From Flavobacterium aquariorum (GTDB lineage: Bacteria; Bacteroidota; Bacteroidia; Flavobacteriales; Flavobacteriaceae): a DNA stretch of 64,000 nt. Position numbers and translations under genes: made by a program. Under the pieces are notes generated by a model. The model saw only the letters and a program-made list of their open reading frames with translations, was not told the origin of the DNA and did no database searches. Shown piece after piece: positions 2,282 through 21,208 of the stretch. How positions within the stretch are numbered: position 1 is the first letter of the stretch; the number at the start of each line of letters is the position of its first letter. The stretch covers positions 1 through 64,000 of the forward strand of contig NZ_QKXH01000006.1 in assembly GCF_003254745.1 (NCBI RefSeq), in the 5' to 3' direction.

Positions 2282-3211
2282 CTATTTTATCTGCAGTAAT
2301 TCATTCTCATAGAAACAAATAGTTTCTTGCAAAGCCCGATCAATTGTATAATCTGGTTTGAAACCTAATTGATTAAATTTGGTTGGGTCTGCAATTGAAT
2401 GTTTAATATCTCCGGGTCTTTCTTCTAAAAATTGAATTTGAGATTTTGAGTTGGTAATTTCGATTATTTTTTTGGCCAGTTCCAAAATAGAGGTGCTATA
2501 TCCCAAAGCTACATTATAGGTTTCTCCACCCATTCTTGAAGCCAAAACATTGGCTTTAACAACATCTTTTACATAAATAAAATCTCTTGTTTGTGAACCA
2601 TCTCCATAAATAGTTATAGGTTGATTTTGAAGTGCTTTATTTATAAAAATAGGCACTGCTGCTGCATAAGCTGATTGCGGATTTTGGCGAGGTCCAAAAA
2701 CGTTGAAATAGCGTAATGAAGCAGTCGGGACATTCCATTGATCCTGATACATTTTCAAATAAAACTCCCCATCCAGTTTTGTTACTGCATAAGGTGTCAT
2801 CGGTTCGGGTGTCATTGTTTCAATTTTAGGCAAAATAGGATTATCTCCATAATTTGCAGCAGAAGACGACAGCACCACTTTACAGCTGTCGTTCTTCTTT
2901 GCAGCTTCCAAAATATTTATTGTTCCCAATGTATTTATTTCAATACACTCGTTTATGTTCAACAGGGATTCCGGTACACTAACCAAAGCAGCTAAGTGAA
3001 ATATTCCACTGGCCCCTTGTACTAGTTCTTCCACAAGATTTTTGTCCCGAATATCTCCTTTTATGAATTTAACATTCAAGCCACTAAGATTTTTTTCAAA
3101 TCCTGTTCTTAAACTATCCAATATGGTTACTTCGTGTCCTTTATTTGATAAATATTCGGCAATGTGACTTCCTATAAAGCCGGCTCCTCCTGTAATTACA
3201 TATTTATTCAT
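2282..3211 (-). CDS. NAD-dependent UDP-sugar epimerase (extended SDR, GalE/WbpP-like)
   Basis: A 309-residue cytoplasmic SDR. The Rossmann motif GGAGFIG is at residues 8-14, the catalytic Ser region SSSAANYG around 115-122, and the active-site pair is Tyr141/Lys145 (YAVTK). RYFNVFGPRQ and YGDGSQTRDFIYVKDV are typical of UDP-hexose/UDP-HexNAc 4-epimerases. It follows the nucleotidyltransferase gene by 24 bp and precedes the permease by 82 bp. In this setting UDP-GalNAc/UDP-GlcNAc or UDP-Gal/UDP-Glc interconversion is the expected reaction. The residue that decides whether N-acetylated sugars fit cannot be assigned confidently by eye. Alternative: another UDP-sugar epimerase of surface-polysaccharide type. 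Confidence 0.88.
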   Translation of the reverse strand: MNKYVITGGAGFIGSHIAEYLSNKGHEVTILDSLRTGFEKNLSGLNVKFIKGDIRDKNLVEELVQGASGIFHLAALVSVPESLLNINECIEINTLGTINILEAAKKNDSCKVVLSSSAANYGDNPILPKIETMTPEPMTPYAVTKLDGEFYLKMYQDQWNVPTASLRYFNVFGPRQNPQSAYAAAVPIFINKALQNQPITIYGDGSQTRDFIYVKDVVKANVLASRMGGETYNVALGYSTSILELAKKIIEITNSKSQIQFLEERPGDIKHSIADPTKFNQLGFKPDYTIDRALQETICFYENELLQIK

Positions 3212-3235: not shown

Positions 3236-4114
3236 CTAGTTTTCATACCAGTTTATCTCAGGATAATGCTTTTTTAAATATTCTTTTACCTCGAGTATAT
3301 CTTCTTTTGCAGTTAAGTCAGGAACGTGTTCAGAAAAAGGAATCCCAACTGTCATATTTGGATGATCTTTTATGGCGTTTAAAAGAGCTGTTGGAAGTTC
3401 TTTTTCGTCTCTTTCCGGATGAACAGGACAGTTTTTGAGGTATGGATATAAAAGTGCTCCGTTAAATTTGAAGGCGTTCATACTTACTCTTAATTTACCT
3501 TCGGAATCCTTATAATCCTCAATATTATCAGCTGATGGTTTTTCAAGAATATCCAAGAGTTGATTATCTGTACCTAATTTAGCAATGGCAAAGCGCGAAA
3601 TTCGTTCTGAAGGAAATTCCATTGCGTCCCGATCATAGCTTATGAAAGCATTTGGGCTATTCGTTTCCCTAAGTGCCAAAAGGGCTTTGGTCGAATATAA
3701 ATTATCACTATTACACACTGAATATAATTGAGTGTTTAGTTCCGGATACTGTTCTACTGCCTGAAATAAAGCATCTGCTGTACCAAATGGTTTTATTCTG
3801 TTTTTAGGAACATGTTGAACTGCAAATGAAATGTTTAACCCGTAAAAATCATTGTTTTCCTTTTTACTTCCGTAAAATTCTTTAAACAATTCTCCCTGTT
3901 CACCAATGATAATATATATGTTTTTGTATCCGGCTTTTTTAGCATTTAGCAAAAGGTAATCTAATAAAGGTCTTCCGTTTGGACCTACTCCAATAAGTCC
4001 TTTACTTCTTTCATTGGCTTGTTGGATTTCTTCCTCATTTAAATTTTCCAAAGAAGCTTGTTTTTTCATTCTTGAAGAAGCTCCTCCCGCTAAAATAATT
4101 AAACTATTATGCAT
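3236..4114 (-). CDS. Sugar-1-phosphate nucleotidyltransferase
   Basis: A 292-residue cytoplasmic protein of the NTP-transferase fold. The N-terminal signature LAGGASSRMKK (residues 8-18) is the nucleotide-binding loop, followed by a Lys-Gly-Leu segment and GPNGRPLLDYLL. SVCNSDNLYS around residues 132-141 resembles the metal-binding Asp of the family. The gene starts 20 bp after the GHMP kinase gene, so together they could make a UDP- (or other NDP-) sugar from the free sugar by way of sugar-1-phosphate. The nucleotide and sugar are not readable from the sequence. UTP plus GalNAc-1-phosphate or galactose-1-phosphate is inferred from the epimerase and nagB in the same operon. Confidence 0.83.
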   Translation of the reverse strand: MHNSLIILAGGASSRMKKQASLENLNEEEIQQANERSKGLIGVGPNGRPLLDYLLLNAKKAGYKNIYIIIGEQGELFKEFYGSKKENNDFYGLNISFAVQHVPKNRIKPFGTADALFQAVEQYPELNTQLYSVCNSDNLYSTKALLALRETNSPNAFISYDRDAMEFPSERISRFAIAKLGTDNQLLDILEKPSADNIEDYKDSEGKLRVSMNAFKFNGALLYPYLKNCPVHPERDEKELPTALLNAIKDHPNMTVGIPFSEHVPDLTAKEDILEVKEYLKKHYPEINWYEN

Positions 4115-4134: not shown

Positions 4135-5211
4135 TTATAAAATTCTTGCTCCAGGATCTACACCCACAGCATAGGCCTCTTTTGCACCTGCTTCCAAAAT
4201 GGACTGGACAACTCGTTCTTGATTTTTTGGATCAACAATTGCCACTATGCACCCGCCGCCGCCAGATCCCACAATTTTTGCCCCGTATGCGCCTGAGTTT
4301 AAAGCAGCATTTATCATAGCATCAATTTTTGGTACCGTAATTTTTAGTAAATCTCTCAAAACGGCATGATGGCCATTCATTAATTCCCCAATCTTTTTCA
4401 AATCAAGAGAAGGTTTCTGAAATTCTTTCAAAGCAAGTTTAGTGTATTGATGATTTTTTATTGCTGCTTCAAAATAAGGAATTAACCGATCCGGTAAAAA
4501 GTTGCAATATTTCTTTAAATCTTCATTTTCGGCAGTATTTAAATCAAAATCTTTATGATTTTGTTTTACAATATCGATTGCCAATAATGCATTGTTTTTT
4601 AATTCACCGATTAGTCCAATGGTTTCTTTTGGAACACCGGAAACACCTATAATGAGGCCTTTTAAATCAGTGCCTATAATAGAACAGCGAAACGGTTCAC
4701 TTGTGTTGATGTGTACAATATTACCCATGCTGATACTATAATGATCCATCATACCTCCTGGTTCACCATGTTCTAATACTTCAGAAACATATCCCATTTG
4801 CGCAATAAATTCAGGGGTTACTTCATCATCAACGCCAAACGCGGTTATCAAAAAATTGATCCATGCAATTAGTAAGGCAGATGAACTCGATGTACCGGAA
4901 TTGATGGGAATATTTCCGGTTACGGTAATGTCATATCCAACAGTTGGAATGCAGCCATGTCTTCTAAGAACCCTTAATGAAGAGGCAAAATAGTCTCGTG
5001 GTTTTAATTCGGGGAAAGTTTCATTGATGTTAATTATTCTTATTTCATCAATATCTACCATATCTAGTTTAAAAACGTTGGTTGTATTTTGTATTGCAGT
5101 TAATTTTATTTCTCTGTCAATTGCGCATGCTATAACTGGCAATCCGAGATAATCTTGATGGTCTCCAAAGAGACAAGTACGACCCGGAGCTAATGATGTA
5201 ATTTTCTTCAC
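4135..5211 (-). CDS. GHMP-family sugar-1-kinase, galactokinase-like
   Basis: A 358-residue cytoplasmic kinase with the three GHMP motifs: GRTCLFGDHQDY at residues 10-21 (galactokinase-type sugar-binding motif), PINSGTSSSSALL at 102-114 (ATP loop) and GSGGGGC at 315-321. It should phosphorylate C1 of a hexose or N-acetylhexosamine. Start is GTG at 5211; no in-frame ATG lies nearby upstream. It is the first gene of the leftward operon, about 80 nt downstream of a predicted start site that is preceded by three operators. In this gene neighbourhood, galactose or GalNAc is the expected substrate, analogous to NahK in galacto-N-biose pathways. L-fucose or an uronic acid cannot be excluded. Confidence 0.88.
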   Translation of the reverse strand: MKKITSLAPGRTCLFGDHQDYLGLPVIACAIDREIKLTAIQNTTNVFKLDMVDIDEIRIININETFPELKPRDYFASSLRVLRRHGCIPTVGYDITVTGNIPINSGTSSSSALLIAWINFLITAFGVDDEVTPEFIAQMGYVSEVLEHGEPGGMMDHYSISMGNIVHINTSEPFRCSIIGTDLKGLIIGVSGVPKETIGLIGELKNNALLAIDIVKQNHKDFDLNTAENEDLKKYCNFLPDRLIPYFEAAIKNHQYTKLALKEFQKPSLDLKKIGELMNGHHAVLRDLLKITVPKIDAMINAALNSGAYGAKIVGSGGGGCIVAIVDPKNQERVVQSILEAGAKEAYAVGVDPGARIL

Positions 5212-5291: not shown

Positions 5292-5330
5292 CGCAACGAA
5301 ATTATAGATTAACTTTTAATTAAACAAGTA
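5292..5330 (-). promoter_or_regulatory. Promoter of the kinase-nagB operon
   Basis: On the minus strand a TTG (-33 type; complement of 5325-5327) is followed by TATAATTTCG (complement of 5297-5306), matching the Bacteroidota TTG / TAnnTTTG pattern. From the last G of TTG to the last G of the -7 box is 28 bp, the same as in the tdh and susC promoters. The predicted start site near 5292 gives a leader of about 80 nt. Confidence 0.7.
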
Positions 5331-5343
5331 AAATCAAATAAAA

Positions 5344-5403
5344 TGTGCTCGAACACACTAAATTTATGTTTTCGAGCACACAATATTTATGTTTTCGAGC
5401 ACA
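5344..5403. promoter_or_regulatory. Triple operator, 23-bp spacing, upstream of the kinase operon
   Basis: Three 14-bp palindrome-like sites lie at 5344-5357 (TGTGCTCGAACACA), 5367-5380 and 5390-5403 (both TGTTTTCGAGCACA). Their central CG steps are at 5350/5351, 5373/5374 and 5396/5397, that is exactly 23 bp apart. A central CG in an even palindrome is the classic LacI-family operator form. The same motif occurs at 6880-6916 and 10534-10570. The nearest regulator gene, the LacI-type protein at 5674, is the natural candidate. The array also lies about 270 bp upstream of that gene and may act on it. Confidence 0.85.
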
Positions 5404-5660: not shown

Positions 5661-5676
5661 TATATTTGTGATTATG
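5661..5676 (+). promoter_or_regulatory. Possible -7 box at the start of the regulator gene (leaderless?)
   Basis: TATATTTG at 5661-5668 matches the Bacteroidota -7 consensus TAnnTTTG, yet it ends only 5 bp before ATG 5674. If used, transcription would start at or next to the A of ATG, giving a leaderless mRNA. No clear TTG is seen at the expected distance upstream, so this is tentative. Confidence 0.35.
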
Positions 5677-6714
5677 AATAAGAAATATACAATAAAAGAT
5701 ATTGCCCAATTGGCTGGAGTTTCGAAAGGAACTGTGGATAGAGTTCTACATAAAAGAGGAAAAGTTTCTGATGACGCTCTAAAAAAAATCAACGAAGTTT
5801 TAGACGTTATAAACTACGAGCCAAATCTTATTGCCAGAAATTTAAAGAACAATAAAGTGTATCGCATTTGTATATTGCTTCCAGATCCAAAAATAGATCC
5901 TTATTGGCTACCTTGCATAAAAGGGATTGAAGATGCAGTGCAAGAATTTAGAGCTTACAATTTTGCAATCGAGACTTTTTTCTTTAATCCGGAAGGAAAA
6001 AAATCATTTTTAAAAATTAATGAAACAGTTTTGGAAAAATCGCCAGATGCCGTTTTGTTGCCACCTTTATTTCATAAAGAAACATTGGAAGTTATCAAGA
6101 AATATGATGAGTTAAATATTATTGTAAATACCTTTAATAACCAAGTTCAATCGGATTCAATAAAGAGTTTTGTTGGTCAGGACTTATTTCATAGTGGAAG
6201 AGTAGCTGCAAAATTATTGGACTTACTTTTAAAAAAAGGACAGATTGCCATTATCCATATTGACGAATCCATTAAGAACGCCATTCACATGCAGGAGAAG
6301 GAGAGGGGCTTCCGCAATTATTTTAGTGAAAAACAAAATCAGGACTATAATATCACTACCTTAAAATTAAAAAATCCCAATGTTGAAATCAATTTTAACA
6401 ACTTCCTAAATGAAAACCCCGATTTGTCAGGAATCTTTATTTCTACTTCAAAAGCCTATCAAATTGCTAAAGTAATTAGTGAAACAAAGCATAAAAAAAT
6501 AGCAGTCATCGGTTATGATTTAATTGAGAATAATGTAAATTATTTGAATCAAGGTGTAATCGATTTTTTAATACATCAAAATCAAAAAAGACAAACCTAT
6601 CTTGGGGTTACGTCAATAATAGAATTTTTTCTTTTTGATAAACAGATTCCAAACACTATCCTTCTGCCCATTGACATAGTGAATTCTGAAAACGCTTCGT
6701 TTTATATAGAATAA
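5674..6714 (+). CDS. LacI-family transcriptional regulator with periplasmic-binding-protein-like sensor
   Basis: A 346-residue regulator. An N-terminal LacI-type helix-turn-helix (residues about 6-25, TIKDIAQLAGVSKGTVDRVL) and hinge are followed by a two-lobed type-I periplasmic-binding-like domain (about 60-346), which would sense a small sugar or sugar phosphate. ATG at 5674 is preferred over GTG at 5668 because family members begin just before the TIKDIA segment. It lies between the leftward kinase operon and the rightward tdh-kbl unit, and palindromes with a central CG flank it on both sides. I infer that it controls all three operator-bearing promoters here. The operators lie upstream of the -33 elements, which suits activation or looping better than simple occlusion. 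Confidence 0.92.
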   Translation: MNKKYTIKDIAQLAGVSKGTVDRVLHKRGKVSDDALKKINEVLDVINYEPNLIARNLKNNKVYRICILLPDPKIDPYWLPCIKGIEDAVQEFRAYNFAIETFFFNPEGKKSFLKINETVLEKSPDAVLLPPLFHKETLEVIKKYDELNIIVNTFNNQVQSDSIKSFVGQDLFHSGRVAAKLLDLLLKKGQIAIIHIDESIKNAIHMQEKERGFRNYFSEKQNQDYNITTLKLKNPNVEINFNNFLNENPDLSGIFISTSKAYQIAKVISETKHKKIAVIGYDLIENNVNYLNQGVIDFLIHQNQKRQTYLGVTSIIEFFLFDKQIPNTILLPIDIVNSENASFYIE

Positions 6715-6741
6715 CTTATCCTTTATATTTAATTACCAAAA

Positions 6742-6784
6742 AGTAGCTATACAGAAATTACTAAGTTCTGTATAGCTGCTTTTA
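6742..6784 (+). terminator. Rho-independent terminator after the LacI-type regulator
   Basis: A 15-bp stem (6742-6756 pairing with 6766-6780, one G-T pair) with a 9-nt loop is followed by TTTT. It starts 27 bp after the regulator stop codon and separates it from the operator-controlled tdh promoter. Confidence 0.8.
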
Positions 6785-6879: not shown

Positions 6880-6916
6880 TGTGCTCGAGAACATTATTTT
6901 AATGTGTTCGAGCACA
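6880..6916. promoter_or_regulatory. Double operator upstream of tdh-kbl
   Basis: Sites TGTGCTCGAGAACA (6880-6893) and TGTGTTCGAGCACA (6903-6916) have centres at 6886.5 and 6909.5, again 23 bp apart. Orientation and order (the site with AGAACA distal, the one with AGCACA next to the promoter) are the same as at susC. Confidence 0.85.
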
Positions 6917-6932
6917 TTTTATTTGTTTTTGC

Positions 6933-6963
6933 TTGTTTTATTAAAACGTAATCTATAATTTCG
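6933..6963 (+). promoter_or_regulatory. Promoter of tdh-kbl
   Basis: TTG at 6933-6935 and TATAATTTCG at 6954-6963, with 28 bp from the G of TTG to the G of the -7 box. The proximal operator centre is 53.5 bp from the last G of the -7 box, exactly as in the two sister promoters. The predicted start near 6969 leaves a leader of about 270 nt before the ATG at 7239. I see no riboswitch-like structure in that leader. Confidence 0.7.
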
Positions 6964-7238: not shown

Positions 7239-8195
7239 ATGATAAAAATATTAATCATTGGAGCCAGTGGACAATTAGGTTCCGTTTTGACCCAAAAACT
7301 GCAGGAAAAGTATGGTGTTGAAAATATAATTGCTTCCGATTTGCGCATGAACCCATCGTTTAATGGTTGTTTTGAAGTTCTTGATGCTACAGATTTTGAT
7401 GCCTTAAAAGAAATAGTCATAAAATTTGGAATTACCCAAATATACCATCTTGCGGCAATTTTATCTGCGAATGGCGAAAAGGCGCCGCTAAGTACTTGGG
7501 ATATAAATATGAAATCTCTATTTAATGTTTTGGAGGTTTCAAGATTGACCAATATGGAAAAAGTGTTTTTCCCTAGCTCTATAGCCGTTTATGGGAATGA
7601 TGCACCAAAAATACAAACGCCACAAGATTATGTTTTGGCACCTTCAACGGTGTATGGCATCAGTAAAGTTGCTGGTGAAAATTGGGCCAAATATTATTAT
7701 GAAAAATATGGTCTTGACATACGTTCCATAAGATATCCGGGTGTAATAGGACATCAGTCATTGCCAGGAGGCGGCACAACAGACTATGCAATTGATATTT
7801 TTCATAAAGCTGTTAAGAACGAGGTTTTTGAATGTTTCTTGGAGTCTACATCAGTACTGCCAATGATTTATATGGATGATACCATCAGGGCTACCATTGA
7901 ATTAATGGAAGCGCCCAAAGAAAATATTACCGTAAGAACGTCTTATAACTTGTCGGGGATGAGTTTTTCGCCTGAAGAGTTAACCAAATCCATTCAAAAG
8001 ATTTATCCGGAATTTAAAATAGTCTACAAACCAGATTTTAGACAAAAAATCGCCGAAAGTTGGCCATCCAGTATTGATGATTCTGCGGCTAGGGCTGATT
8101 GGAATTGGAAACCACAATTTGATATTGATGCGATGACCAGTATTATGATTGAAGAATTGAAACTAAAATATACTGCTGAACTTAATATTAATTAG
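7239..8195 (+). CDS. tdh: L-threonine 3-dehydrogenase, SDR type
   Basis: A 318-residue NAD-dependent extended-SDR enzyme that oxidises L-threonine to 2-amino-3-ketobutyrate. GASGQLG (residues 8-14) binds NAD; SS at 113-114 and Tyr139/Lys143 (YGISK) form the catalytic set. RYPGVIGHQSLPGGGTTDYA and the late YNLSGMSFSPEEL are characteristic of SDR-type threonine dehydrogenases, as known from Flavobacterium, rather than of sugar epimerases. The glycine acetyltransferase gene begins 6 bp downstream, which completes the two-step pathway to glycine plus acetyl-CoA. Unusually, this unit carries the same double operator as the sugar-import genes. Confidence 0.93.
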   Translation: MIKILIIGASGQLGSVLTQKLQEKYGVENIIASDLRMNPSFNGCFEVLDATDFDALKEIVIKFGITQIYHLAAILSANGEKAPLSTWDINMKSLFNVLEVSRLTNMEKVFFPSSIAVYGNDAPKIQTPQDYVLAPSTVYGISKVAGENWAKYYYEKYGLDIRSIRYPGVIGHQSLPGGGTTDYAIDIFHKAVKNEVFECFLESTSVLPMIYMDDTIRATIELMEAPKENITVRTSYNLSGMSFSPEELTKSIQKIYPEFKIVYKPDFRQKIAESWPSSIDDSAARADWNWKPQFDIDAMTSIMIEELKLKYTAELNIN

Positions 8196-8201
8196 ACCAT
8201 C

Positions 8202-9407
8202 ATGTACGGGACAACAAAAAATGAATTGATAAACGAGTTGGAAAACATAAAATCTAACGGACTTTATAAAAATGAACGAATAATTACTTCAAAACAAGGA
8301 GCCGAAATTAATACAACATCCCAAAATAACGTATTAAATTTTTGTGCAAATAACTATCTGGGGCTCGCATCCAATTCGGACGTAATTGAGGCTGGAATTG
8401 AAGCTTTAAAAAGATATGGTTTTGGACTTTCGTCCGTTCGCTTTATATGTGGGACACAAGATATTCACAAAGAACTGGAACAAAAAACAGCTGCATTTTT
8501 AGGAATGGAAGACTGTATTTTATATGCTTCTGCATTTGATGCCAATGGGGGGATTTTCGAGCCGTTACTATCTTCTGAAGATGCAGTAATATCAGATGAG
8601 TTTAATCATGCCTCTATAATTGACGGTATTCGCCTTTGTAAAGCAAATCGATTCAGATACAAGCATAATGATATGGGAGATTTAGAAGAACAGTTAAAAG
8701 CGGCTAGTTCCTCAAGGCGAAAATTAATTGTTACGGATGGTTCATTTTCTATGGATGGAACAATAGCCCAATTGGATAAAATATGTGACTTGGCAGACAA
8801 GTATGGAGCTTTGGTTATGATCGACGAATGTCATTCTACCGGTTTCATTGGGACCAAAGGGAGGGGCGTTCATGAATACCACAATGTTATGGATAGAGTA
8901 GATATTATCACGGGAACTTTTGGAAAAGCTTTGGGAGGCGCTTCGGGTGGATTTACGTCTGCAAGAAAGGAAATAGTTGAATTGTTGCGACAAGTTTCCA
9001 GACCTTATTTATTTTCAAATACAATAGCTCCGTCCATTGTTGGCGCTACTTTAAAAGTGCTTGAAATTTTAACCGATTCTACCCATCTAAGAGATAAATT
9101 GGAAGAAAATACAAAATATTTTCGTCAGGAAATGACAGCTGCCGGATTTGATATTGTTCCTGGTTTGCATCCCATAGTGCCTATAATGTTATATGATGCA
9201 CAGCTAGCCCAAGATTTTGCACGAAAACTATTGGAAGAGGGAATTTATGTAATTGGTTTTTTCTACCCGGTTGTGCCAAAAGGAAAAGCCAGAATACGAG
9301 TTCAGCTTTCTGCGGGACATGAACTGGATCAAATAAAGAAGGCTATCAATGCTTTTGTTAAAGTTGGAAAAGATTTGAAAGTAATTGAAGGCAATAATAC
9401 TTTTTAA
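8202..9407 (+). CDS. kbl: Glycine C-acetyltransferase (2-amino-3-ketobutyrate CoA ligase)
   Basis: A 401-residue PLP-dependent alpha-oxoamine synthase. It cleaves 2-amino-3-ketobutyrate with CoA to glycine and acetyl-CoA. The PLP lysine is Lys245 in [13 protein letters not shown], with DECHSTGF (Asp and His contacting PLP) about 25 residues earlier. [11 protein letters not shown] and SVRFICGTQ are near-diagnostic of Kbl. Length equals that of the E. coli enzyme. It is cotranscribed with tdh (6-bp gap) and followed by a strong terminator. Confidence 0.95.
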
Positions 9408-9461
9408 GTTATAGTTAAAATTCAATTAAATCAATCAAAAACAGAAATAGTCGGTATAAAA

Positions 9462-9501
9462 AAAACGGATAGTATTTAGATTCTAATACTATCCGTTTTT
9501 T
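9462..9501. terminator. Bidirectional terminator between kbl and the CBM9-like gene
   Basis: A perfect 12-bp stem (9465-9476 with 9485-9496) and an 8-nt loop, with an A-tract before and a T-tract after, so it can end both the rightward kbl transcript and the leftward transcript. Confidence 0.85.
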
Positions 9502-9525: not shown

Positions 9526-10176
9526 TTATTCTTTTAAAATTAATGTTCCGAAAGAAGAAGCTATATGGAAATTGGGTGTTTCCGTATTTGGATTTACCCA
9601 GGTTATCCAGATTGGTTCAAAATTTCCTTTTTCGTTCTGGGAATATTTTGCCCGAAAAATACCTGTTTCGATTTTGTTATTTTTGATTAAATTGAAATAT
9701 TTTAAGGATTGAATCGAAATTGAACCTTCTACGGTGAAAGAATCCTTTTTTACGGATGATTTTACTACCATGTCATCTTTCGGCCAACTCCAGCTAAAAT
9801 CCAAATTCTTATTTGGATAAGCAATGAAATCCATTAATCGTGCTTCAGAATCCATTTCCAAGCAGTAATAAGGATTCATGGAATCGTCGGACCTAAAAAA
9901 AAGTTCGACTCTATCCGAATTATTGATTCTGTCAAAACTATCATCCTGTTTTTCAATGTGAATTGATGAATCCACAACGGTGAAGTTGAAAAATAATTTT
10001 TCAGAATCCCAAAGTGCCTTGAATATAATCTTTGATGGCTTTTCACTATCCCATGGAGAGCAAAAATCGGTCAACGGCATGGCATTATTCCATAGAATGT
10101 CATCTCCTTTTCCGGTGAGAATCAATTGTTCTTTTTCGATTAAATTTACTGTGTATTCTTTTATTTTGTGATTCAT
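9526..10176 (-). CDS. CBM9-like carbohydrate-binding protein without export signal
   Basis: A 216-residue protein resembling the carbohydrate-binding family 9-like domain found in Bacteroidota. Supporting pieces are the FKALWDSEKLFFNFTVVD strand-rich core, the NSDRVELFF motif, FSWSWPKDD, and the late WITWVNP with FHIASSFGTLIL. There is no signal peptide or lipobox at the N-terminus, so it is predicted to be cytoplasmic, which is odd for a glycan-binding module. It is the only leftward gene between kbl and susC and shares the bidirectional terminator with kbl. It could bind an imported saccharide or nucleotide sugar; no enzymatic motif is seen. Function unknown. Confidence 0.7.
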   Translation of the reverse strand: MNHKIKEYTVNLIEKEQLILTGKGDDILWNNAMPLTDFCSPWDSEKPSKIIFKALWDSEKLFFNFTVVDSSIHIEKQDDSFDRINNSDRVELFFRSDDSMNPYYCLEMDSEARLMDFIAYPNKNLDFSWSWPKDDMVVKSSVKKDSFTVEGSISIQSLKYFNLIKNNKIETGIFRAKYSQNEKGNFEPIWITWVNPNTETPNFHIASSFGTLILKE

Positions 10177-10533: not shown

Positions 10534-10570
10534 TGTGCTCGAGAACACAAATTTAATGTGTTCGAGCACA
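10534..10570. promoter_or_regulatory. Double operator upstream of susCD
   Basis: Sites TGTGCTCGAGAACA (10534-10547) and TGTGTTCGAGCACA (10557-10570), centres 10540.5 and 10563.5, are 23 bp apart. The two 14-mers are identical to those upstream of tdh. They lie about 320 bp before the susC start and directly upstream of the promoter. Confidence 0.85.
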
Positions 10571-10891: not shown

Positions 10892-13800
10892 ATGAATGAA
10901 ATAACCAAAAACAAGCAGGAGCACTATCGGCTTAACATTTTCTCAGGGAGAATGGTCAAAATTACTACCGTTTTACTGTTAAATTGGACTTTGCAGGCTT
11001 CAGCATCAGAAAGTTTTAAGACAAATCTTCCTATTGAAGTTAATGTTCAAAATGTACAAAAGCAAATTAAAGGGAAGGTTACCGATGAAAGTGGTTTACC
11101 TATATCTGGAGTAAATATCCAGGTAAAGGGGAGTAAAGAATCTGTCCAATCAGAATTTGACGGATCTTTTACAATTAATGCAGATGAAGCTTCGGTTACT
11201 TTGGTTTTTTCCTTTATAGGCAAAGAAACTAAAGAAGTAAAAGCTGGTGCTGGTTTCGTGAATGTCGTTTTGAAAGAAGAGGGACTAAAAATGAACGAAG
11301 TAATTGTTGTTGGGTATGGTAAACAAAAGAAAGGTGACGTTACTGGCTCTGTGAGTTCTATTGGTAAAGATAACTTAAATTTAGGTGGTACTGTTGCCAA
11401 TGTCGGCCAAGCCTTGCAAGGTCGTGCATCTGGAATTCAGGTACAACAAAATAATTTTGCTCCGGGGAGTACACCTTCTGTTGTTATTAGAGGTGGTAAC
11501 TCAATCAATACTTCTAATTCACCATTGTATGTTGTTGATGGATTTATTACAAGCACCGGTGCATCTATTAGCCCAAATGACATTGAAAATATTCAGGTTT
11601 TAAAAGATGCTTCTTCTACGGCCATTTATGGTGCCAGAGGAGGAAATGGGGTAATATTGATTACTACCAAGAAAGGAAAACTTGGGAAAATGCAAGTTGA
11701 GGCCGAAATCTCGGATGGTTTTCAAAATATAATTAAGGAGCCTTCTTTGTTGAATGGACAACAATACGCCAGCTATCAAAATGCACTTGCTGCCGAAAAT
11801 GGTAAGCCGCCGGTTTTTCCTTCCAGTTTTCCAATTGCGAATACCAATTGGTTTGATGAAGCAACGCGTCAGGGAAGCGTAATCAACAGAAGCCTTACTT
11901 TTAGCGGAAGCGACAAAGTGTCTAAATTTTTTCTTTCAGGAAACTATATAAAACAAAAAGGAGCTTTAGAAAATACTGATTTTGAAAGATACACTGTTAG
12001 AATGGGTGCCGAGAAAAAATTTAATGATAAATTAAATATGGGTACCAATGTTTATGGTGCTGTAAGTGAAGGAAACAACAGTGATTTTGGGGACAACATT
12101 TTATCTCCGATGTATTCTCTTCAAACTGCACCTCCTAGTATTCCTGTTTACAACCCTGATGGATCTTATTATAAATTTCAAGGAAAGGATAACGCATTGG
12201 CTCTTTTGTTAGAACCTACAAATCATATAATCAATAGATTGGTAAACGGAAGTATGTTTTTGGACTATGAAGTTATCAAAAACTTAACTTACCATTTTGG
12301 CGCAGGGGCTGAGTGGCAAGAGAACATACAAGGAAATTATACCCCTAGTACGCTTGTTGCTGGAGCCGCCTTAAAAGGGATTGGATCTGAAGAAAATAAA
12401 ACATATTTTAGGTGGAGTACAGAGCAATATTTAACATATAAATTTACAACTGGTGAGCATGCTGTAACCGCGATGTTGGGAACTTCAAATCAAAAAGATA
12501 CCTACGAGCGATTAAAAGCAGTAGGTACTGGTTTTAGCAACGATTTGTTGACATATTACAACCTTCAAGGAGCCGAAGTTTATCAGAAACCGGAAACTGA
12601 GAAAACAGAGACGAAGCTTACTTCGTATTTCGGTAGGTTGAATTATTCATTTGCTGATAAATATCTAGCTTCTTTCACTATAAGAAAAGATGGTTCATCC
12701 CGTTTTGGTCCAAACAATAAATATGGGATCTTCCCATCTGGGGCCGTTGCTTGGAAACTCTCAAATGAATCGTTTATACAAGACCTAAATACTTTTTCGG
12801 ATTTAAAATTAAGAGTCAGTTACGGTATTACAGGGAATGATGGTATTGGAGATTATTCATACATGAGTAGACTTGTTTCTTATGGGGTAACAATTGCTCC
12901 TGATGGTTTTGTTGGCGGTACGGAGCCTGCTAATTTAGCTAACCCTAATTTGAAATGGGAAGAAACGGCTCAAACCAATTTAGGTTTGGATATGGGATTC
13001 TTTAATGGAAGACTTAGCGGGACTATTGATTTCTATAAAAAAACAACAAGTGATGCACTTTTAAATGTTCCTGTTGGAGGATGGTGGGGTTTTGGTACTC
13101 AAAGAATTAATTCGGGAATTATTGAAAATAAAGGGTTTGAGCTTGGCATAAGCAGCGAAAACTTTAGAACAGATAATTTTTCATGGAGAACATCTTTAAA
13201 TTTCGCGTACAATAAGCAGGAGATTGTTGAACTTGCTGACAATGTTAAAATAATTAGTACCAATACATCCAACCCAAGCGGTGTAGTTTCAGGTCAAGAG
13301 TTTACAAGATTAGAGCCAGGAAAAGAAATGGGAGTATTATTTGGTTATGAATATGCGGGAGTTGTAAAAACAGGAGAAGTGTATGCGCCGCAACCATTGT
13401 CTAAGCCAGGAGACCCGAAATATGTGGATGTAAATGGAGACGGAAAAATTACGGCCGATGACAGAACTTATTTAGGAAATTCTACACCTCATTATCTTGC
13501 AGGGTTTAATAATGATTTTAGATATAAAAATTTCGACTTGAATATCTTTTTTCAAGGGGCTTTTGACTATTCCGTGTACAATATGACCGCAATGGTAGGA
13601 GAATCATCTACAAGTACAGACGTCTTAAATCGTTGGGTTGCCGGTACAAATGAAAATACAGATATTCCAAGAAACGGCTATTACGCAAGTAAATATGGTA
13701 GTTATGTTAATTCAAAATTTGTTGAAGAAGCATCTTATATTCGTTTGAAAAATGTTTCTCTTGGATACTCTATTCCCGAGAGTGCATTGAAACAAGTTAA

Positions 13801-13993
13801 ATTTATAGATAGTATCAGATTGTATGCTATTGGTCAGAATTTGGTAACTTTTACAAACTATTCTGGAAATGACCCTGAAGTAAACGCACATACAGCTTCA
13901 GTTACATCACAAAACATTGGTGGAGGAATCGATTTCAACTCATTCCCAGCTTCCAGGACTTTTATTTTGGGTTTAAAAGTTACAATTCATTAG
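10892..13993 (+). CDS. SusC/RagA-like TonB-dependent outer-membrane receptor
   Basis: A 1033-residue outer-membrane transporter that imports oligosaccharides or glycopeptides with energy from TonB. A hydrophobic signal region (about residues 22-39) precedes a carboxypeptidase-D-regulatory-like beta domain (about 57-115), the NEVIVVGYGKQ segment that starts the plug (about 133), the plug domain and a 22-strand-type barrel ending in an aromatic-rich RTFILGLKVTIH. ATG 10892 gives a long polar stretch before the signal; Met21 (10952) is an alternative start with a more usual signal peptide. The SusD partner follows 37 bp later. Expression is expected from the double-operator promoter. The usual partners of SusC/D loci, an ECF sigma/anti-sigma pair or hybrid two-component regulator, are absent. 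Confidence 0.96.
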   Translation: MNEITKNKQEHYRLNIFSGRMVKITTVLLLNWTLQASASESFKTNLPIEVNVQNVQKQIKGKVTDESGLPISGVNIQVKGSKESVQSEFDGSFTINADEASVTLVFSFIGKETKEVKAGAGFVNVVLKEEGLKMNEVIVVGYGKQKKGDVTGSVSSIGKDNLNLGGTVANVGQALQGRASGIQVQQNNFAPGSTPSVVIRGGNSINTSNSPLYVVDGFITSTGASISPNDIENIQVLKDASSTAIYGARGGNGVILITTKKGKLGKMQVEAEISDGFQNIIKEPSLLNGQQYASYQNALAAENGKPPVFPSSFPIANTNWFDEATRQGSVINRSLTFSGSDKVSKFFLSGNYIKQKGALENTDFERYTVRMGAEKKFNDKLNMGTNVYGAVSEGNNSDFGDNILSPMYSLQTAPPSIPVYNPDGSYYKFQGKDNALALLLEPTNHIINRLVNGSMFLDYEVIKNLTYHFGAGAEWQENIQGNYTPSTLVAGAALKGIGSEENKTYFRWSTEQYLTYKFTTGEHAVTAMLGTSNQKDTYERLKAVGTGFSNDLLTYYNLQGAEVYQKPETEKTETKLTSYFGRLNYSFADKYLASFTIRKDGSSRFGPNNKYGIFPSGAVAWKLSNESFIQDLNTFSDLKLRVSYGITGNDGIGDYSYMSRLVSYGVTIAPDGFVGGTEPANLANPNLKWEETAQTNLGLDMGFFNGRLSGTIDFYKKTTSDALLNVPVGGWWGFGTQRINSGIIENKGFELGISSENFRTDNFSWRTSLNFAYNKQEIVELADNVKIISTNTSNPSGVVSGQEFTRLEPGKEMGVLFGYEYAGVVKTGEVYAPQPLSKPGDPKYVDVNGDGKITADDRTYLGNSTPHYLAGFNNDFRYKNFDLNIFFQGAFDYSVYNMTAMVGESSTSTDVLNRWVAGTNENTDIPRNGYYASKYGSYVNSKFVEEASYIRLKNVSLGYSIPESALKQVKFIDSIRLYAIGQNLVTFTNYSGNDPEVNAHTASVTSQNIGGGIDFNSFPASRTFILGLKVTIH

Positions 13994-14030: not shown

Positions 14031-15542
14031 ATGAAAAAATATACAATACTATTACTTTTACTTACCGCAGGAGTACAATTTTCGTGCAACAACGATCTTG
14101 ATCCCACGGTATACAGTAATTTGACCAATACAAACGGGTATCAAACAAAGTCGGATGCCATTGCAGCCGTCAATTCAATTTATGGCAGGCTAAAAGGACC
14201 TGTTGTTGGAGATAACTTTTCGTATTGGGCAACGAGACATTTTGCTTTGACAGATCTTGCAACAGATTTAGGACATTGCCAATACGGTGGTGATCCAGGA
14301 CAACTCTCTTTAGGAACTTGGAATGCTGCCAATGGATTGCTTAAGGAAGATTGGAATGCAATGTATAAGTTGATTGCCAATGCCAATAGTGCGATTTATA
14401 ACATCGCGCCTATGACTGGAATTTCGGATGCTGAAAAAGCGCAATTTATAGCCGAAGCCAAATTTTTAAGAGCTTCTGCCTATATGGACTTAACGGATTC
14501 TTGGGGTCCGGTAATTTTAATTACGGAAGCCAATTTGGGAAACCCTGCTTATTTAGATCAAACACCTCCAACATCAGTTGAGGATATTGATGCTTTCTTG
14601 ATTAAAGAACTTAATGACGCAGCAGCTGTATTGCCCGTGAATTATAAAAGCAATGCAATTTATGATAGTAATGATGTGGGGCGTGCCACCAAAGGTGCTG
14701 CATTAACATTGTTGGCAAAATTGTATTTACGCAGCCACAGCTGGCAACAAGTAGTGAGTGTTACCAAACAGGTAATGGACCTTAATGAATACAGCCTTTT
14801 CCCCTCTTATAATGGATTGTTCAAAGAAAGCAACAAATGGTGTAGCGAAAATATTTTCTCTTCCCTTAGTGATGCCAATACAAATGGAACGGAATTGTTG
14901 AATCATTTTGGACCAGTAGATCATCCTGTTGTTCAAAACAGATGGCAGTATTATACTGTAAACTGGGATTTCTATAATACTTTTGGTGATGAAGATGACA
15001 GAAAACAATGTTTCTTCCCAGAATTTATGGGTGTTGACGGTTTGTTGCACAAGCAAGCTCCTACATTGGGTGCTGAACCACCTGCAGGTGAGTTCTACAT
15101 GCCGGATGTATCTACCAGAAAATACGCAGATGATGAAACTACTACTTATTATGATGGTCACAGTGTAGATATTTTACGTTATGCCGATGTATTGTTAAGT
15201 AGAGCAGAAGCAATAAATGAACTTAGTGGGCCTACTGCCGAAGCAATAGATCTTATCAATCAAGTTAAAGCAAGATCACACGCTAAACTTTTGGTTTTGG
15301 CAGATTACAATCAAACAACTTTAAGAGATGCTATTTTGCAAGAAAGAGGTTGGGAGTTCTTCTTTGAAGGAAAACGTCGTTCCGATTTAATTAGAATGAA
15401 CAAATATGATGTTCTTGTAAATGCATATCACCTTAGAGTAGGTGAAGCAGCTCAAATCAAGATGCCTCAAAATAAATTTTATACTTACCCTCAAAGTCAA
15501 GTGGATCTTAACCCTAAGTTAAGCAATGCCGACAGACAGTAA
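14031..15542 (+). CDS. SusD/RagB-like glycan-binding lipoprotein
   Basis: A 503-residue surface lipoprotein that caps the SusC channel. The lipobox ends at Cys19 (GVQFSC). The N-terminal SusD-like region and TPR-type helices (for example GAALTLLAKLYLR) are followed by the C-terminal RagB/SusD signature ERGWEFFFEGKRRSDLIRM. The length is at the lower end for the family. It lies directly after susC and is followed by a strong terminator, so the downstream enzymes may be transcribed at a lower level by read-through. Confidence 0.96.
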   Translation: MKKYTILLLLLTAGVQFSCNNDLDPTVYSNLTNTNGYQTKSDAIAAVNSIYGRLKGPVVGDNFSYWATRHFALTDLATDLGHCQYGGDPGQLSLGTWNAANGLLKEDWNAMYKLIANANSAIYNIAPMTGISDAEKAQFIAEAKFLRASAYMDLTDSWGPVILITEANLGNPAYLDQTPPTSVEDIDAFLIKELNDAAAVLPVNYKSNAIYDSNDVGRATKGAALTLLAKLYLRSHSWQQVVSVTKQVMDLNEYSLFPSYNGLFKESNKWCSENIFSSLSDANTNGTELLNHFGPVDHPVVQNRWQYYTVNWDFYNTFGDEDDRKQCFFPEFMGVDGLLHKQAPTLGAEPPAGEFYMPDVSTRKYADDETTTYYDGHSVDILRYADVLLSRAEAINELSGPTAEAIDLINQVKARSHAKLLVLADYNQTTLRDAILQERGWEFFFEGKRRSDLIRMNKYDVLVNAYHLRVGEAAQIKMPQNKFYTYPQSQVDLNPKLSNADRQ

Positions 15543-15660: not shown

Positions 15661-17070
15661 ATGATCAAGAGATTTTTATCAATAGGACTTTTTGTTTTCT
15701 CGCTATCAATACTGATGAGCTGCTCTAATAAAGGCAATTGTATCCAAAATATCATCGTAGGAACTCATGGTAACAACGAATTGAAAATTCAAATCGATGT
15801 TACTACAAGTACTGATGCAAAGGTCTATGTAGAATATTGGCGTGAGGCAACTGGAACTAAAGGTAAAATGACTTCCTTGACAACAACTAGTGGAACAAAA
15901 CATTCTTTGGTACTTTGTTCTATTAGGCCAGACACTAAATACAACTATCAGGTTGTGACCATTCAGGATGATGTGAAAAACACTAGTAAAGTTTATGCTT
16001 TCAAATCCAGGCAATTGCCGGAATGGTTTCAAAAACAATTCAAAGCCAATTGTCCAAAGCCTAATTTATTACCTGAAAATTTCAAAAAAGGCTTTATGCT
16101 TTTAAGCAAAAGAGAAACCCCAGGAGTGGCTTATATAGTGGATTATAAAGGAAACTTGAGATGGTATCATACTGTAGAAGGGACGGGATTCAAAGTTTCC
16201 TGTTTTACCGATGACCAAACGATTATTTCCATACTAGGAAAAAATGATGAGCCAACGAGTTATGGCAGTGAGATTTTAGAAATTAATTTGCAAGGTGATA
16301 CGCTAACGCACATCAAAAAAGGTCAAGGCGATTTTAAACAAGTTATTCATCATGAAATTTTTAAAAAATCGACCAACGAAATCGTGACTTTGTTTGTTGA
16401 TGAAAGAATAACCGACTTATCCTCGATAGGCGGTAAAAAGAAAGATACCATCAATGGTGACGGAATTATTATCATGGATAAAAAAGGAAAACAACTTTGG
16501 AAATGGAGTGTTTTTGACGATTTAGATCCAATGAAAGATAAAGCATTGTTGAAAACAAAAAAGGATTGGATGCATGCCAACAGCTTGAATTACGACAAAG
16601 ACGGCAATTTTATTATTTCGTTTTATAACAACGGCCAAATTTGGAAAGTAGATGCTAAAACCGGAAAAGTAATCTGGAAAATAGGAAAAGGCGGGACAAT
16701 GACAATGCCAGCCAACTGTAATTTCTCGCAAGCCCACGCTGCACATATTAACAAGGAAGGAAGCTTAATGTTTTTTGATAATGGTGTCGATAAAAAACAA
16801 TCTTCTGTTTTTGCTTTTAAAGTAGATGAAAAAGGCAATGCCATAAAACTGGATTACCAAGTGAAATTACCGAAGGAAATCTATAATGACAGAATGGGAA
16901 GTGCCTATATGATTGATAAAGAAACCATATTGTGCTGTTGTTCTAAAAGACACATAACTGTTTTGACCAATAAACAAGGGGTTTTGCTATGGGCCTTAGA
17001 GTCCGAAATTCCTCCTTATCGAGTTAAGTTTATTCCAGAAGATAAACTCAAACCGTTTCTTTTTAACTAA
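15661..17070 (+). CDS. Arylsulfotransferase (ASST)-family lipoprotein
   Basis: A 469-residue lipoprotein (lipobox ILMSC, Cys21). A fibronectin-like N-terminal part (about 35-125) is followed by a beta-propeller whose repeats read like WYHTVEGTG, WKWSVFDDL, and WKVDAKTGKVIWKIG. The stretch DWMHANSLNYDKDGNF (about residue 300) and SQAHAAHI (about 360) hold the conserved His residues of the arylsulfate/arylsulfotransferase family, which moves sulfuryl groups between phenolic donors and acceptors in the periplasm. Whether this protein is a sulfotransferase or only shares the fold is not clear. The next gene is a TsdA-like cytochrome c 72 bp downstream. No sulfatase gene is present in the visible locus. 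Confidence 0.78.
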   Translation: MIKRFLSIGLFVFSLSILMSCSNKGNCIQNIIVGTHGNNELKIQIDVTTSTDAKVYVEYWREATGTKGKMTSLTTTSGTKHSLVLCSIRPDTKYNYQVVTIQDDVKNTSKVYAFKSRQLPEWFQKQFKANCPKPNLLPENFKKGFMLLSKRETPGVAYIVDYKGNLRWYHTVEGTGFKVSCFTDDQTIISILGKNDEPTSYGSEILEINLQGDTLTHIKKGQGDFKQVIHHEIFKKSTNEIVTLFVDERITDLSSIGGKKKDTINGDGIIIMDKKGKQLWKWSVFDDLDPMKDKALLKTKKDWMHANSLNYDKDGNFIISFYNNGQIWKVDAKTGKVIWKIGKGGTMTMPANCNFSQAHAAHINKEGSLMFFDNGVDKKQSSVFAFKVDEKGNAIKLDYQVKLPKEIYNDRMGSAYMIDKETILCCCSKRHITVLTNKQGVLLWALESEIPPYRVKFIPEDKLKPFLFN

Positions 17071-17142: not shown

Positions 17143-18132
17143 ATGAAAAAAATAGTTGTTATCGGAATCCTTTTTGCTTTGCCAATAATGATTTTTAATT
17201 CTTGTAATTCGTCTTCGGCCAATACTGTTGCAAAAGAAGAAACAAAAGACGAATCTTATATTACCATCGATACTTCAAAAATTCCAAATGATAAGTTTGG
17301 CGAATCGGTGCGTTATGGAAGAGAATTAATGCTAAGAACGGCATATTATATTGGTCCAAATGGAATTAAAGGAAAATATTTGGGCAATAAAATGAATTGT
17401 ACCAATTGCCATCAAGATGCAGGGACGAAGCCTTACGCTTTCAATTTGATGTCATCGCATGACAATTATCCACAATACCGTGGGCGAGAAGACAAAGTGC
17501 TCACGCTTGCAGAACGCGTAAACAATTGTGTGATGCGTCCACATTCCGGTAAACCTTTGCCATTGGACAGTGACGAAATGGTTGCTTTTTTATCTTATTT
17601 TAAATGGATTAGCAAGTTTGTACCAAAGGACAGTTTGTTTAAAGGAGCTAAAAACCTAAAAATTGAATTCCCTGCAGTGGCAGCAAGCCCTGAAAGAGGA
17701 AAAGTACTTTTTACCGAAAACTGCGCTCGTTGCCACGGAAATGAGGGGGAAGGGAAATTCAACGAAGACAAATCAGGATACGTTTACCCACCTTTATGGG
17801 GAAAATATGCGTACCAACCTGGTTCGAGCATGCATAGAGTTATCAAACAAGCACAATGGTTAAAAGGGAATATGCCTTTTGATAAAGTAACTGTTGGTAA
17901 ACCCTATTTAACCGATGCACAAGCACTTGATATTGCGGCCTATGTGAATGATGATTCCGTTCATACCAGACCAAATCCTAAAACATTGGATTATCCAGAT
18001 CCAAAGGCTAAAGCAATAGATTATGCTCATGCTCCTTTTATTGATCCTTTTAGCGAAAAACAACATAGACTAGGACCTTTTAAACCCATTATTGAATATT
18101 GGAAAAAACAAGGTTGGGAAGCTATTTATTAA
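17143..18132 (+). CDS. Dihaem c-type cytochrome lipoprotein, TsdA-like
   Basis: A 329-residue exported protein with a lipobox-like FNSC (Cys21). It has two haem-attachment motifs, CTNCH (86-90) and CARCH (194-198). Between them, RVNNCVMRPHSGKPL (Cys129) and MVAFLSYFKWIS closely resemble the segment of thiosulfate dehydrogenase TsdA that supplies the unusual axial cysteine ligand of haem 1. A thiosulfate dehydrogenase/tetrathionate reductase or related periplasmic oxidoreductase is therefore plausible; a generic electron carrier is the alternative. Its position within a glycan locus, between an ASST-family gene and a putative glycosidase gene, is unusual. Confidence 0.78.
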   Translation: MKKIVVIGILFALPIMIFNSCNSSSANTVAKEETKDESYITIDTSKIPNDKFGESVRYGRELMLRTAYYIGPNGIKGKYLGNKMNCTNCHQDAGTKPYAFNLMSSHDNYPQYRGREDKVLTLAERVNNCVMRPHSGKPLPLDSDEMVAFLSYFKWISKFVPKDSLFKGAKNLKIEFPAVAASPERGKVLFTENCARCHGNEGEGKFNEDKSGYVYPPLWGKYAYQPGSSMHRVIKQAQWLKGNMPFDKVTVGKPYLTDAQALDIAAYVNDDSVHTRPNPKTLDYPDPKAKAIDYAHAPFIDPFSEKQHRLGPFKPIIEYWKKQGWEAIY

Positions 18133-18190
18133 AGGTTTGATAAAACAATCTATTACTATTCTAGAACATTTTTTGAAAAAAAATACAATT

Positions 18191-21100: not shown

Positions 21101-21208
21101 ATAACAATTCCTGAAGTAAAGAATTTTCAATCAGCACAGCAATTTTCTGCTAATTCGGAACTACTGGTTGCAAAAGGGAAAGGATTGTTATTGATTGTTA
21201 AACAATAA
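18191..21208 (+). CDS. Putative secreted glycoside hydrolase (TIM-barrel type, GH123-N/DUF6067-like)
   Basis: A 1005-residue protein with a clear Sec signal (SSLVALCLFITTGALRAQ). ATG 18191 is chosen because it opens directly on the signal; a frame upstream overlaps the cytochrome gene. The N-terminal 650 residues are beta-sandwich-like. The region about 670-930 looks like a TIM barrel, with VNIHHATPINPYINYP, GLKVKIYNTIRE, then VGIDGVYLDDVAFDR (Asp780/Asp781) and FFLTEVSGIPFG (Glu855) as candidate acidic catalytic residues at strand ends. It resembles large uncharacterised Bacteroidota proteins that I recall as DUF6067/GH123-related, but this assignment is from memory. Locus context suggests action on HexNAc-containing glycans. 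Substrate unknown. Confidence 0.65.
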   Translation: MKYNSKQRSFISSLVALCLFITTGALRAQELKYTDGNNSWNPSLLGNHRAVVQFTGSGTVAKTTIDWRRRDENPELKQIIVQDAKTGKDILNVKPENINRESGTIFFEAVSGKGTYYVYYLPYIDEGPNVYYPKGVYVKAKNTADEAWLSKVKTDLKTNCSVSEIQSINAFNSFYPMEVIATAKETKNLIAQNQGKAFLVFPEDRMNSIRMQKDLPKRWIDKGVQKTFTDTALRGEYLAFQLGVYALQDLSNVKVTFSDLKNAAGKTIAAKNISCINTDGIKYDGSVFSNTVNVSKGRVQALWCGIDIPESTVAGDYLGEILVSSGGATQAVSLHLVVNGDVTNNGGIDHPEKMTRLKWLNSTMAQENTVIAPYIPLEVKESEISLLGRKVLLSKNGLPAQIQTFFTPEMTSIGAKANDILAAPAQFHLLDNTGKEINNWKNTSFKFTKKEAGTVAWESTNTDTAVEMQVNGTLEFDGFLSYTVKITALEDVTFNDINFQMPLQPTSAKYLMGLGQKGGERPESLKWKWDVANKNQDGAWVGNVNSGLQFSLRDEKYSRPLNTNFYLQKPLILPTSWGNENRGGIDIVPSGKAVLVNAYSGNRSMKKGDVLYYNFNLLITPFHAINTDFQWDSRFYHRYNNLDTIAKTGATIVNIHHATPINPYINYPFIEHEKMKNYIDEAHSKGLKVKIYNTIRELSNKSYEIHALRSLGHEIFTPGKGGGFNWLQEHIGEDYIAAWFVPEIKDAAIVNSGMNRWHNYYVEGMNWLVQNVGIDGVYLDDVAFDRVTMKRVKRVLTKDGHPGIIDLHSANQFNKSDGFNNSANLYMEHFPYLNKLWFGEYFDYEKNQPDFFLTEVSGIPFGLMGEMLQDGGNAWRGMIYGMTNRMPWSENADPRPIWKVWNDFGIKGSEMIGYWSENCPVKTSNTKVLATVYKKKGSALISIASWADEDVKVKLNIDWKKLGIDPAKATITIPEVKNFQSAQQFSANSELLVAKGKGLLLIVKQ

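Follow-up and report, generated by a model that had tools for sequence, protein, structure and literature searches.

Threonine-degradation genes behind the operators of a predicted N-acetylgalactosamine utilization locus in Flavobacterium aquariorum

Can a locus that takes up a glycan also govern the fate of the amino acid to which the glycan was attached? The question is raised by a stretch of 64,000 nucleotides from Flavobacterium aquariorum (RefSeq assembly GCF_003254745.1, contig NZ_QKXH01000006.1, positions 1 to 64,000; the whole stretch is called the window below), in which the threonine-degradation genes tdh and kbl (7239-9407) stand next to genes for a SusCD-type transporter and for predicted glycosidases. 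An original prediction, made from the DNA letters, had placed tdh-kbl under the same control as susCD and had the locus use the sugar and peptide parts of one substrate. Shared control is now strongly supported at the level of sequence: the operators at tdh and susC are identical, the promoters have the same geometry, an operator pair also stands at the tdh unit of another Flavobacterium genome (G167) and of F. fluvii, and the Lrp/AsnC gene that usually accompanies such a unit is absent there.

In the explanation that we favor, a LacI-family regulator would act through operators lying just upstream of the promoters of an N-acetylhexosamine-kinase/NagP/NagB operon, of an operon running from susCD to a GH109 gene, and of tdh-kbl. 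It would sense N-acetylgalactosamine (GalNAc) or a phosphorylated or nucleotide derivative, and would probably activate, not repress. Once O-glycopeptides had been imported, GH109 and an M1 aminopeptidase would free their GalNAc and threonine; the sugar would enter the kinase branch, and Tdh and Kbl would convert threonine to glycine and acetyl-CoA. Taking this explanation as a whole, we lean toward seeing in the window a Flavobacterium locus for GalNAc-containing glycoconjugates, with three operator-borne promoters under the LacI regulator. We propose more tentatively that an operon for threonine degradation has passed from the control of its native Lrp/AsnC regulator to that of a GalNAc-sensing LacI activator. 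The sugar of an O-glycopeptide would then be the signal for breakdown of the amino acid carrying it, and Aestuariivivens would offer a second case of such an amino-acid arm. The gene identities, operators, promoter geometry and conservation that follow are established by sequence.

An Intact Threonine-Degradation Unit

The tdh gene (7239-8195, + strand) encodes a protein of 318 aa whose best solved relatives are L-threonine 3-dehydrogenases of the SDR type (the artificial TDH 5z75, 2.2e-128, and 2yy7, 2.7e-115), and which carries the motifs GxxGxxG (residue 8), YxxxK (residue 139) and TTDY (residue 180). Downstream, kbl (8202-9407, + strand) encodes a glycine C-acetyltransferase (2-amino-3-ketobutyrate CoA ligase) of 401 aa, which scores 674.9 bits against TIGR01822 (cut-off 493), has the Kbl structures 7bxp and 1fc4 as its best solved relatives, and matches at residue 239 the pattern TxGKALGG, which we take to be the lysine motif of Kbl. 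The solved relatives, the profile and the motifs bear out the earlier assignment of the two genes as the pair that turns threonine into glycine and acetyl-CoA. Both genes are intact, and the dN/dS values of 0.05-0.09 in comparisons with G167 and F. fluvii, similar to those of neighboring genes, indicate that both are under purifying selection.

The two genes form a separate unit outside the susCD operon, with a promoter of their own and terminator-like hairpins on either side, one 3' of lacI (6739-6783, + strand; -23.7 kcal/mol, z -6.9) and one between the convergent kbl and CBM9-like genes (9460-9501; z -6.4). These hairpin calls rest on folding z-scores, a scan for terminator patterns having returned two sites against 2.0 in shuffled sequence. 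Co-transcription from lacI as the sole route to tdh-kbl expression was rejected, given the unit's own promoter and the hairpin 3' of lacI.

Operators and Promoter Geometry

The operator is a 14-bp palindrome, TGTKYTCGARMACA, of which the 4.38-Mb genome holds seven exact copies, all within the locus: three ahead of the minus-strand kinase operon (5344-5403, starting at 5344, 5367 and 5390), two at tdh (6880-6893 and 6903-6916) and two at susC (10534-10547 and 10557-10570). Within each group the copies are spaced 23 bp apart, and the two 14-mers at tdh match those at susC letter for letter, as had been predicted. With up to three mismatches on both strands, TGTGCTCGAGAACA finds 16 matches in the window against 3.07 expected, while sites with one mismatch to TGTKYTCGARMACA number 18 across the genome, about what chance would give (the reversed pattern has 16). 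The operator as a common motif of the genome was rejected, the exact sites being confined to the locus.

Each operator group precedes the same promoter elements. At tdh (promoter 6933-6963, + strand) a TTG (-33) begins at 6933 and a TTTCG (-7) at 6959, a spacing found in most operator promoters; the corresponding motifs lie at 10587 and 10613 ahead of susC, and at 5325-5327 and 5297-5301 on the - strand ahead of the kinase operon. The operator pair, with up to three mismatches, occurs in 63 of 299 Flavobacterium genomes (the reversed-pattern control gave zero among the matches listed). In 53 distinct operator-pair promoters, which stem from related genomes and are hence not independent, the operators are spaced 23 bp apart in 51 and 22 bp in two, the TTG follows the proximal operator at 15-16 nt in 50, and TTG and TTTCG are 26 nt apart in 50; one of the exceptions has no TTTCG-type motif and two have no TTG at the expected place. 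Orientation was assigned by the proximal operator, and the set comprises promoters in which this operator fits a defined pattern and has no other operator within 25 nt. The motifs were taken from the sequences themselves and thus chosen after looking; an earlier promoter expression with a different -7 motif had matched one of 59 operator pairs, and 4 of 39 loci in other genera, none of these four being informative. F. fluvii enters the set of 53 only in the direction away from tdh, its tdh direction having been read directly from the sequence.

The arrangement at tdh is conserved. The operator/promoter block (6880-6963) is identical to that of G167 at 81 of 84 positions, against 375 of 467 over the remaining aligned stretch, and in F. 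fluvii two operators, of which one has a single mismatch, stand with the same geometry ahead of a GH29 fucosidase gene followed by tdh and kbl, with a second GH29 gene after them. Among LacI-bearing loci of other genera (the family set defined below), 15 of 39 have the motif TAnnTTTG downstream of an exact operator at a distance of 38-40 nt, the background frequency being 0.66 per thousand positions; one Flavobacterium locus, L230, was left out of the 40 for this count. On the opposite flank of the operator, which in most cases faces lacI (L232-L260), TAnnTTTG occurs at variable distances, for example 13-29 and 47 nt, and because of this variability lacI may be under a different regulation from its targets.

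The operators sit at an almost fixed distance from the promoter and upstream of the -33 element, and for this reason the geometry suggests that the regulator activates. Geometry is the sole basis of that reading, and 24 of the 39 loci are without the 38-40 nt spacing; both points weigh against it. Most LacI-family proteins, moreover, are repressors, and the regulator might instead repress tdh-kbl until the sugar arrives, as in classical induction. We regard this as doubtful: a repressor needs no fixed upstream site, whereas operators that end 15-16 nt upstream of TTG in 50 of 53 promoters have the layout of activator sites.

The LacI-Family Regulator and Its Probable Signal

The proposed locus regulator (5668-6714, + strand) combines a LacI helix-turn-helix domain (PF00356, 53.7 bits) with a periplasmic-binding-protein-like domain (Peripla_BP_4, PF13407, 101 bits), and palindromic operators lie near its gene, all of which places it in the LacI family. 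Its F. fluvii counterpart is 90% identical, in keeping with searches that found the closest relatives of the genome in Flavobacterium. Matches at E <= 1e-85 occur in 59 of 397 genomes sampled across the family, and in 40 of 237 genera. The best 40 of the 60 matches outside the own genome, each with its genomic context, make up the family set; an exact operator lies within about 10 kb of the LacI gene in 39 of these 40 loci. An exact operator is likewise present in 13 of 14 named loci found through LacI alone, the exception being a 38%-identical protein from Saprospiraceae. Because gene and operator co-occur, we assign the operators to this regulator and infer that it binds them. There is also a second kind of LacI locus (L261, L264, L265, L267, L268 and L269), with LacI, an exact operator, SusC and a DUF5107 protein and with no kinase or NagB in view.

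What the regulator senses may be read from the operon linked to it. In the window, as in further Flavobacterium loci, this operon includes a GHMP kinase (4135-5211, - strand in the window; PF08544/PF00288), a probable N-acetylhexosamine or GalNAc 1-kinase. In F. fluvii and other relatives a NahK-type kinase of the APH family occupies the corresponding position. All solved relatives of the F. fluvii protein at E <= 0.001 are N-acetylhexosamine 1-kinases (PDB 4ocu, 3.7e-68). The family set has an APH-family (NahK-type) kinase in 28 of 40 loci, a nucleotidyltransferase in 28 and NagB in 31. Over 67 loci, in which some genomes occur more than once, 18 have the GHMP kinase, 32 the NahK type, none both and 17 neither. 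Examples of NahK-type enzymes in the GHMP place are L110:13392-14519, L044:7781-8872 and L122:14340-15440.

Because the two kinase types exchange in the same operon place, the operon would appear to phosphorylate GalNAc or N-acetylglucosamine (GlcNAc) at C1, and the regulator to sense a product of that route. A point against this is that three mevalonate kinases head the PDB matches of the GHMP kinase, outscoring the N-acetylgalactosamine kinase 2a2c and the galactokinases that come next. The linkage of LacI and operator to an N-acetylhexosamine 1-kinase operon makes GalNAc or a derivative the probable signal, and GH109 together with an operon that carries such a kinase in relatives supports GalNAc as the sugar of the locus. 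A probable GalNAc regulon, with its LacI regulator, operator and promoter geometry, is thereby outlined over many genera of the Flavobacteriaceae.

Bifidobacteria have a lacto-N-biose/galacto-N-biose pathway that uses an N-acetylhexosamine 1-kinase. Like it, F. fluvii and some other relatives have an N-acetylhexosamine 1-kinase, a nucleotidyltransferase and an epimerase in one operon; the window differs in its GHMP kinase and in an added NagB/PIG-L fusion.

Origin of tdh-kbl and a Probable Change of Regulator

The tdh-kbl pair of the window differs from the housekeeping type of the genus. Of the tdh matches listed from 299 Flavobacterium genomes, by far the most are 53-59% identical to the window Tdh, and the genome itself has a second tdh (53% identical) and a second kbl (65%) elsewhere, unlinked. 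In a tree of 71 Tdh sequences the window type (46 rows) stands apart from 25 Flavobacterium housekeeping rows with support of 100/100, and the window, G167 and F. fluvii group together with 100/99. That the pair arose by recent copying of its housekeeping counterparts was rejected on these identities and on the separation of the Tdh clades.

At E <= 1e-130, a tdh of the window type is found in 6 of 398 Flavobacterium genomes. The frame is open in five (the window, G167, F. fluvii, G270 and G074), and four of these, hence 4 of the 398 genomes sampled, have it in a LacI/GH109 locus; in G074 it lies on a 9.3-kb contig with AsnC adjoining and no LacI/GH109 locus in view. In the sixth genome, G017, a tdh remnant (L112:2617-3567) has three in-frame stops and no kbl match beside it, and lies distant from that genome's LacI locus. 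Across the family sample, window-type tdh is found in 51 of 397 genomes, the own genome included (E <= 1e-125). Of the 51 matches outside the own genome, 40 were examined with their surroundings: an Lrp/AsnC gene accompanies tdh in 34 of these loci and kbl does so in 36; one of the 40 is the source genome of the AsnC query.

The window pair has the same Tdh and Kbl types as the Lrp/AsnC-tdh-kbl operons of Flavobacteriaceae, and its Tdh falls inside their clade; it differs from them in having no AsnC gene and in having LacI operators ahead. Neither the window nor 60 kb of G167 nor the stretches of F. fluvii examined gave a match to AsnC, and the best homologue in the own genome is 51% identical, against 65-88% within the AsnC proteins of the Tdh clade. 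Because AsnC is usual beside the tdh of this clade, is absent here and is replaced in front by operator pairs, the amino-acid-type regulator has probably given way to one of the sugar type in the window, G167 and F. fluvii. With LacI operators in front and the AsnC gene gone, it is probable that the sugar turns on threonine degradation. The amino-acid arm may thus have originated as an operon with its own amino-acid-type regulator that was rewired to a sugar regulator.

Recurrence and Intermediate States

The original prediction had named a failure of the neighborhood to recur in related genomes as evidence against it. The neighborhood does recur, yet it is rare: besides the four Flavobacterium genomes, tdh-kbl stands at the LacI locus in Aestuariivivens and near it in one further genus (G312), where the pair has an operator at about 3 kb and NagB at 4 kb, and tdh is separated from the LacI gene by about 11 kb. 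States with AsnC still beside tdh-kbl, within or adjoining a LacI-type locus, are seen in G270 and in Aestuariivivens (L044, L045 and, from the same genus, G674).

Near tdh-kbl in Aestuariivivens L044 lie genes for an aldehyde dehydrogenase, for a DHDPS-family enzyme and for a 4-hydroxyproline epimerase that scores 573 bits where the cut-off is 376; of the four hydroxyproline-pathway enzymes scanned for, the epimerase alone exceeds its curated cut-off. L045 and G674 have a DAO-family oxidoreductase near tdh-kbl, and G674 has M24 and DPP4-like peptidases as well. This neighborhood fits the use of peptides from a glycoprotein rich in hydroxyproline, proline and threonine, but chance adjacency is possible. 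Hydroxyproline-degradation-type genes beside AsnC-tdh-kbl and a LacI/NahK locus span L044:14654-19909, L045:14664-20174 and L160:10977-19900, the last being G674 with its proline-type peptidases.

The Source of the Threonine

That the threonine would come from O-glycopeptides is a proposal that goes beyond what the operators show. The locus encodes a GH109 alpha-N-acetylgalactosaminidase-like enzyme (28218-29594, + strand), which upholds the earlier assignment (PF21252, 138.8 bits; PDB 6t2b, 6.4e-85), although its activity is predicted. The secreted aminopeptidase of the original prediction is an M1 peptidase (24589-26820, + strand; PF01433, 138 bits) with the zinc motif HExxH-18-E and a GAMEN motif, while its secretion is a reading of the N-terminus alone; an M1 peptidase is present in the locus of other Flavobacterium too. 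The prediction that sugar and peptide parts of one substrate are used together fares unevenly: GH109 and the kinase operon support GalNAc, but a search of the own genome at E <= 0.001 gave no M60 O-glycopeptidase.

Several further points weigh against the favored explanation. Orthologues of GH109 and M1 (>60% identity) are seen in Flavobacterium loci only and in none of the 40 family-set loci, including the Aestuariivivens loci with tdh-kbl (the set includes one Flavobacterium, whose sequence ends before these genes), and our confidence is slightly lower because of this. Housekeeping tdh and kbl are already present elsewhere in the genome. Operator-fronted tdh-kbl has been seen in one clade only, the three genomes grouped at 100/99, and shared control there is possibly a single event. 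The modules of G270, Aestuariivivens and G312 retain AsnC. No tdh-kbl lies within about 10 kb in 38 of the 40 family LacI loci, nor in 11 of the 14 named ones, of which at least two are cut by contig ends; the amino-acid arm is an option of the LacI regulon and not its rule. Finally, all steps from operator to physiology are ones that we infer.

These points leave room for LacI control of tdh-kbl with another purpose, namely a supply of glycine, acetyl-CoA and NADH, or the use of threonine from bulk protein in the same habitat, at times when the amino sugar is plentiful. Shared operators reveal control and not the source of the threonine, the M1 family is a general one, and the negative search for an M60 peptidase and the Aestuariivivens loci without GH109 or M1 orthologues fit here as well. 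We nonetheless think this unlikely: the pathway is catabolic and specific to threonine, and a GalNAc locus that includes an aminopeptidase, together with co-location with GalNAc-type loci in other genera, is better accommodated by a common substrate.

It is quite improbable that tdh-kbl is a passenger with a copied promoter whose control is physiologically irrelevant, even though its operator-bearing form is known from three genomes of one clade and the related tdh of G017 has decayed, for both genes are under purifying selection, the operator block is conserved, and the pair has been retained in two gene orders, that of the window and that of F. fluvii, in which a fucosidase gene lies between the operators and the pair. 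We give equally little credence to a substrate other than a glycoprotein, such as a GalNAc-rich bacterial or algal polysaccharide with amide-linked threonine or another GalNAc polymer: GH109 and a GH123_N protein in the locus, the failure to find an M60 peptidase in the genome and a GH88-family gene near the F. fluvii locus would suit it, whereas the M1 aminopeptidase lies inside the main operon, and the F. fluvii locus has GH29 and GH35, as one would expect for glycans of the mucin or blood-group type.

Comparison with Described Loci

A locus for both the sugar and the peptide of O-glycoproteins has been described, and in this respect the arrangement is less singular than had been supposed. 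The BT4240-50 polysaccharide utilization locus of Bacteroides thetaiotaomicron comprises GH109, a GalNAc 1-kinase, SusCD and an M60 peptidase; it serves glycopeptides and GalNAc, its authors propose import of O-glycopeptides, and its control is probably exerted by an extracytoplasmic function (ECF) sigma/anti-sigma pair (Ndeh et al., 2025; PMC11992087). The parts of that account covered here name no amino-acid-catabolic gene (PMC11992087). GH109 is common to both loci, in the window as a sequence-based assignment. The NahK/APH-family kinase of BT4240-50 and the GHMP kinase of the window are likely to have the same role, since F. fluvii and 28 of the 40 family-set loci have a NahK-type enzyme at that position. 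An M60 O-glycopeptidase in the former contrasts with the M1 peptidase in the latter, and the sigma/anti-sigma pair with LacI and its operators (no ECF sigma or anti-sigma family was found among the 18 window proteins scanned). Unlike BT4240-50, as far as its account was covered, the window has tdh-kbl behind the same operators.

Threonine catabolism in such a locus, the other half of the earlier claim, does appear to be new: no polysaccharide or mucin utilization locus with threonine catabolism was found in the literature, as covered mainly by open-access papers and in part. Glycan loci are described for the sugar and sometimes for cleavage of the carrier; to our knowledge, the amino acids of the carrier are not treated as part of the regulon. 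The present locus suggests that, in at least one clade, their fate does lie inside it. Whether O-glycoproteins are used as a single nutrient, sugar and amino acid together, is a question that can be addressed in a culturable genus.

Other Genes of the Locus

Adjacent susC and susD genes, together with co-located GH123_N and GH109 genes, mark a polysaccharide utilization locus of the SusCD type. On the - strand, the kinase operon continues from the GHMP kinase with a sugar-1-phosphate nucleotidyltransferase (3236-4114; PF00483, 45.5 bits), an NDP-sugar 4-epimerase-like protein (2282-3211; PF01370, 211 bits), an MFS sugar transporter resembling NagP and FucP (817-2199; NF046060, 442 bits, below the cut-off of 625) and NagB (glucosamine-6-phosphate isomerase) as part of the NagB/PIG-L fusion. 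The window edge cuts the last gene, leaving 257 aa to be read (1-772, bounds approximate); the full-length F. fluvii orthologue comprises PF01182 and PF02585.

On the + strand, the main operon encodes a SusC-like TonB-dependent transporter (10892-13993; profile match), a SusD-like lipoprotein (14031-15542; PF07980, 97 bits), arylsulfotransferase-like (15661-17070) and cytochrome c-like (17143-18132) proteins, both by profile match, and a GH123_N-family putative beta-GalNAcase (18125-21208; PF19543, 1544 bits), for which no solved relative was found in the PDB at E <= 0.001. A DUF5107-TPR protein (21422-24520) precedes the M1 aminopeptidase and a DUF5077-DUF3472 protein (26841-28139) separates the latter from GH109, both being profile matches. 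The small CBM9-like gene convergent with kbl (9526-10176, - strand; PF06452, 54 bits) has counterparts in 20 of the 40 family loci, no more than about 10 kb from LacI, and the arylsulfotransferase-like and cytochrome c genes recur between SusCD and GH123_N in several other Flavobacterium loci (for example L036, L041, L042 and L123).

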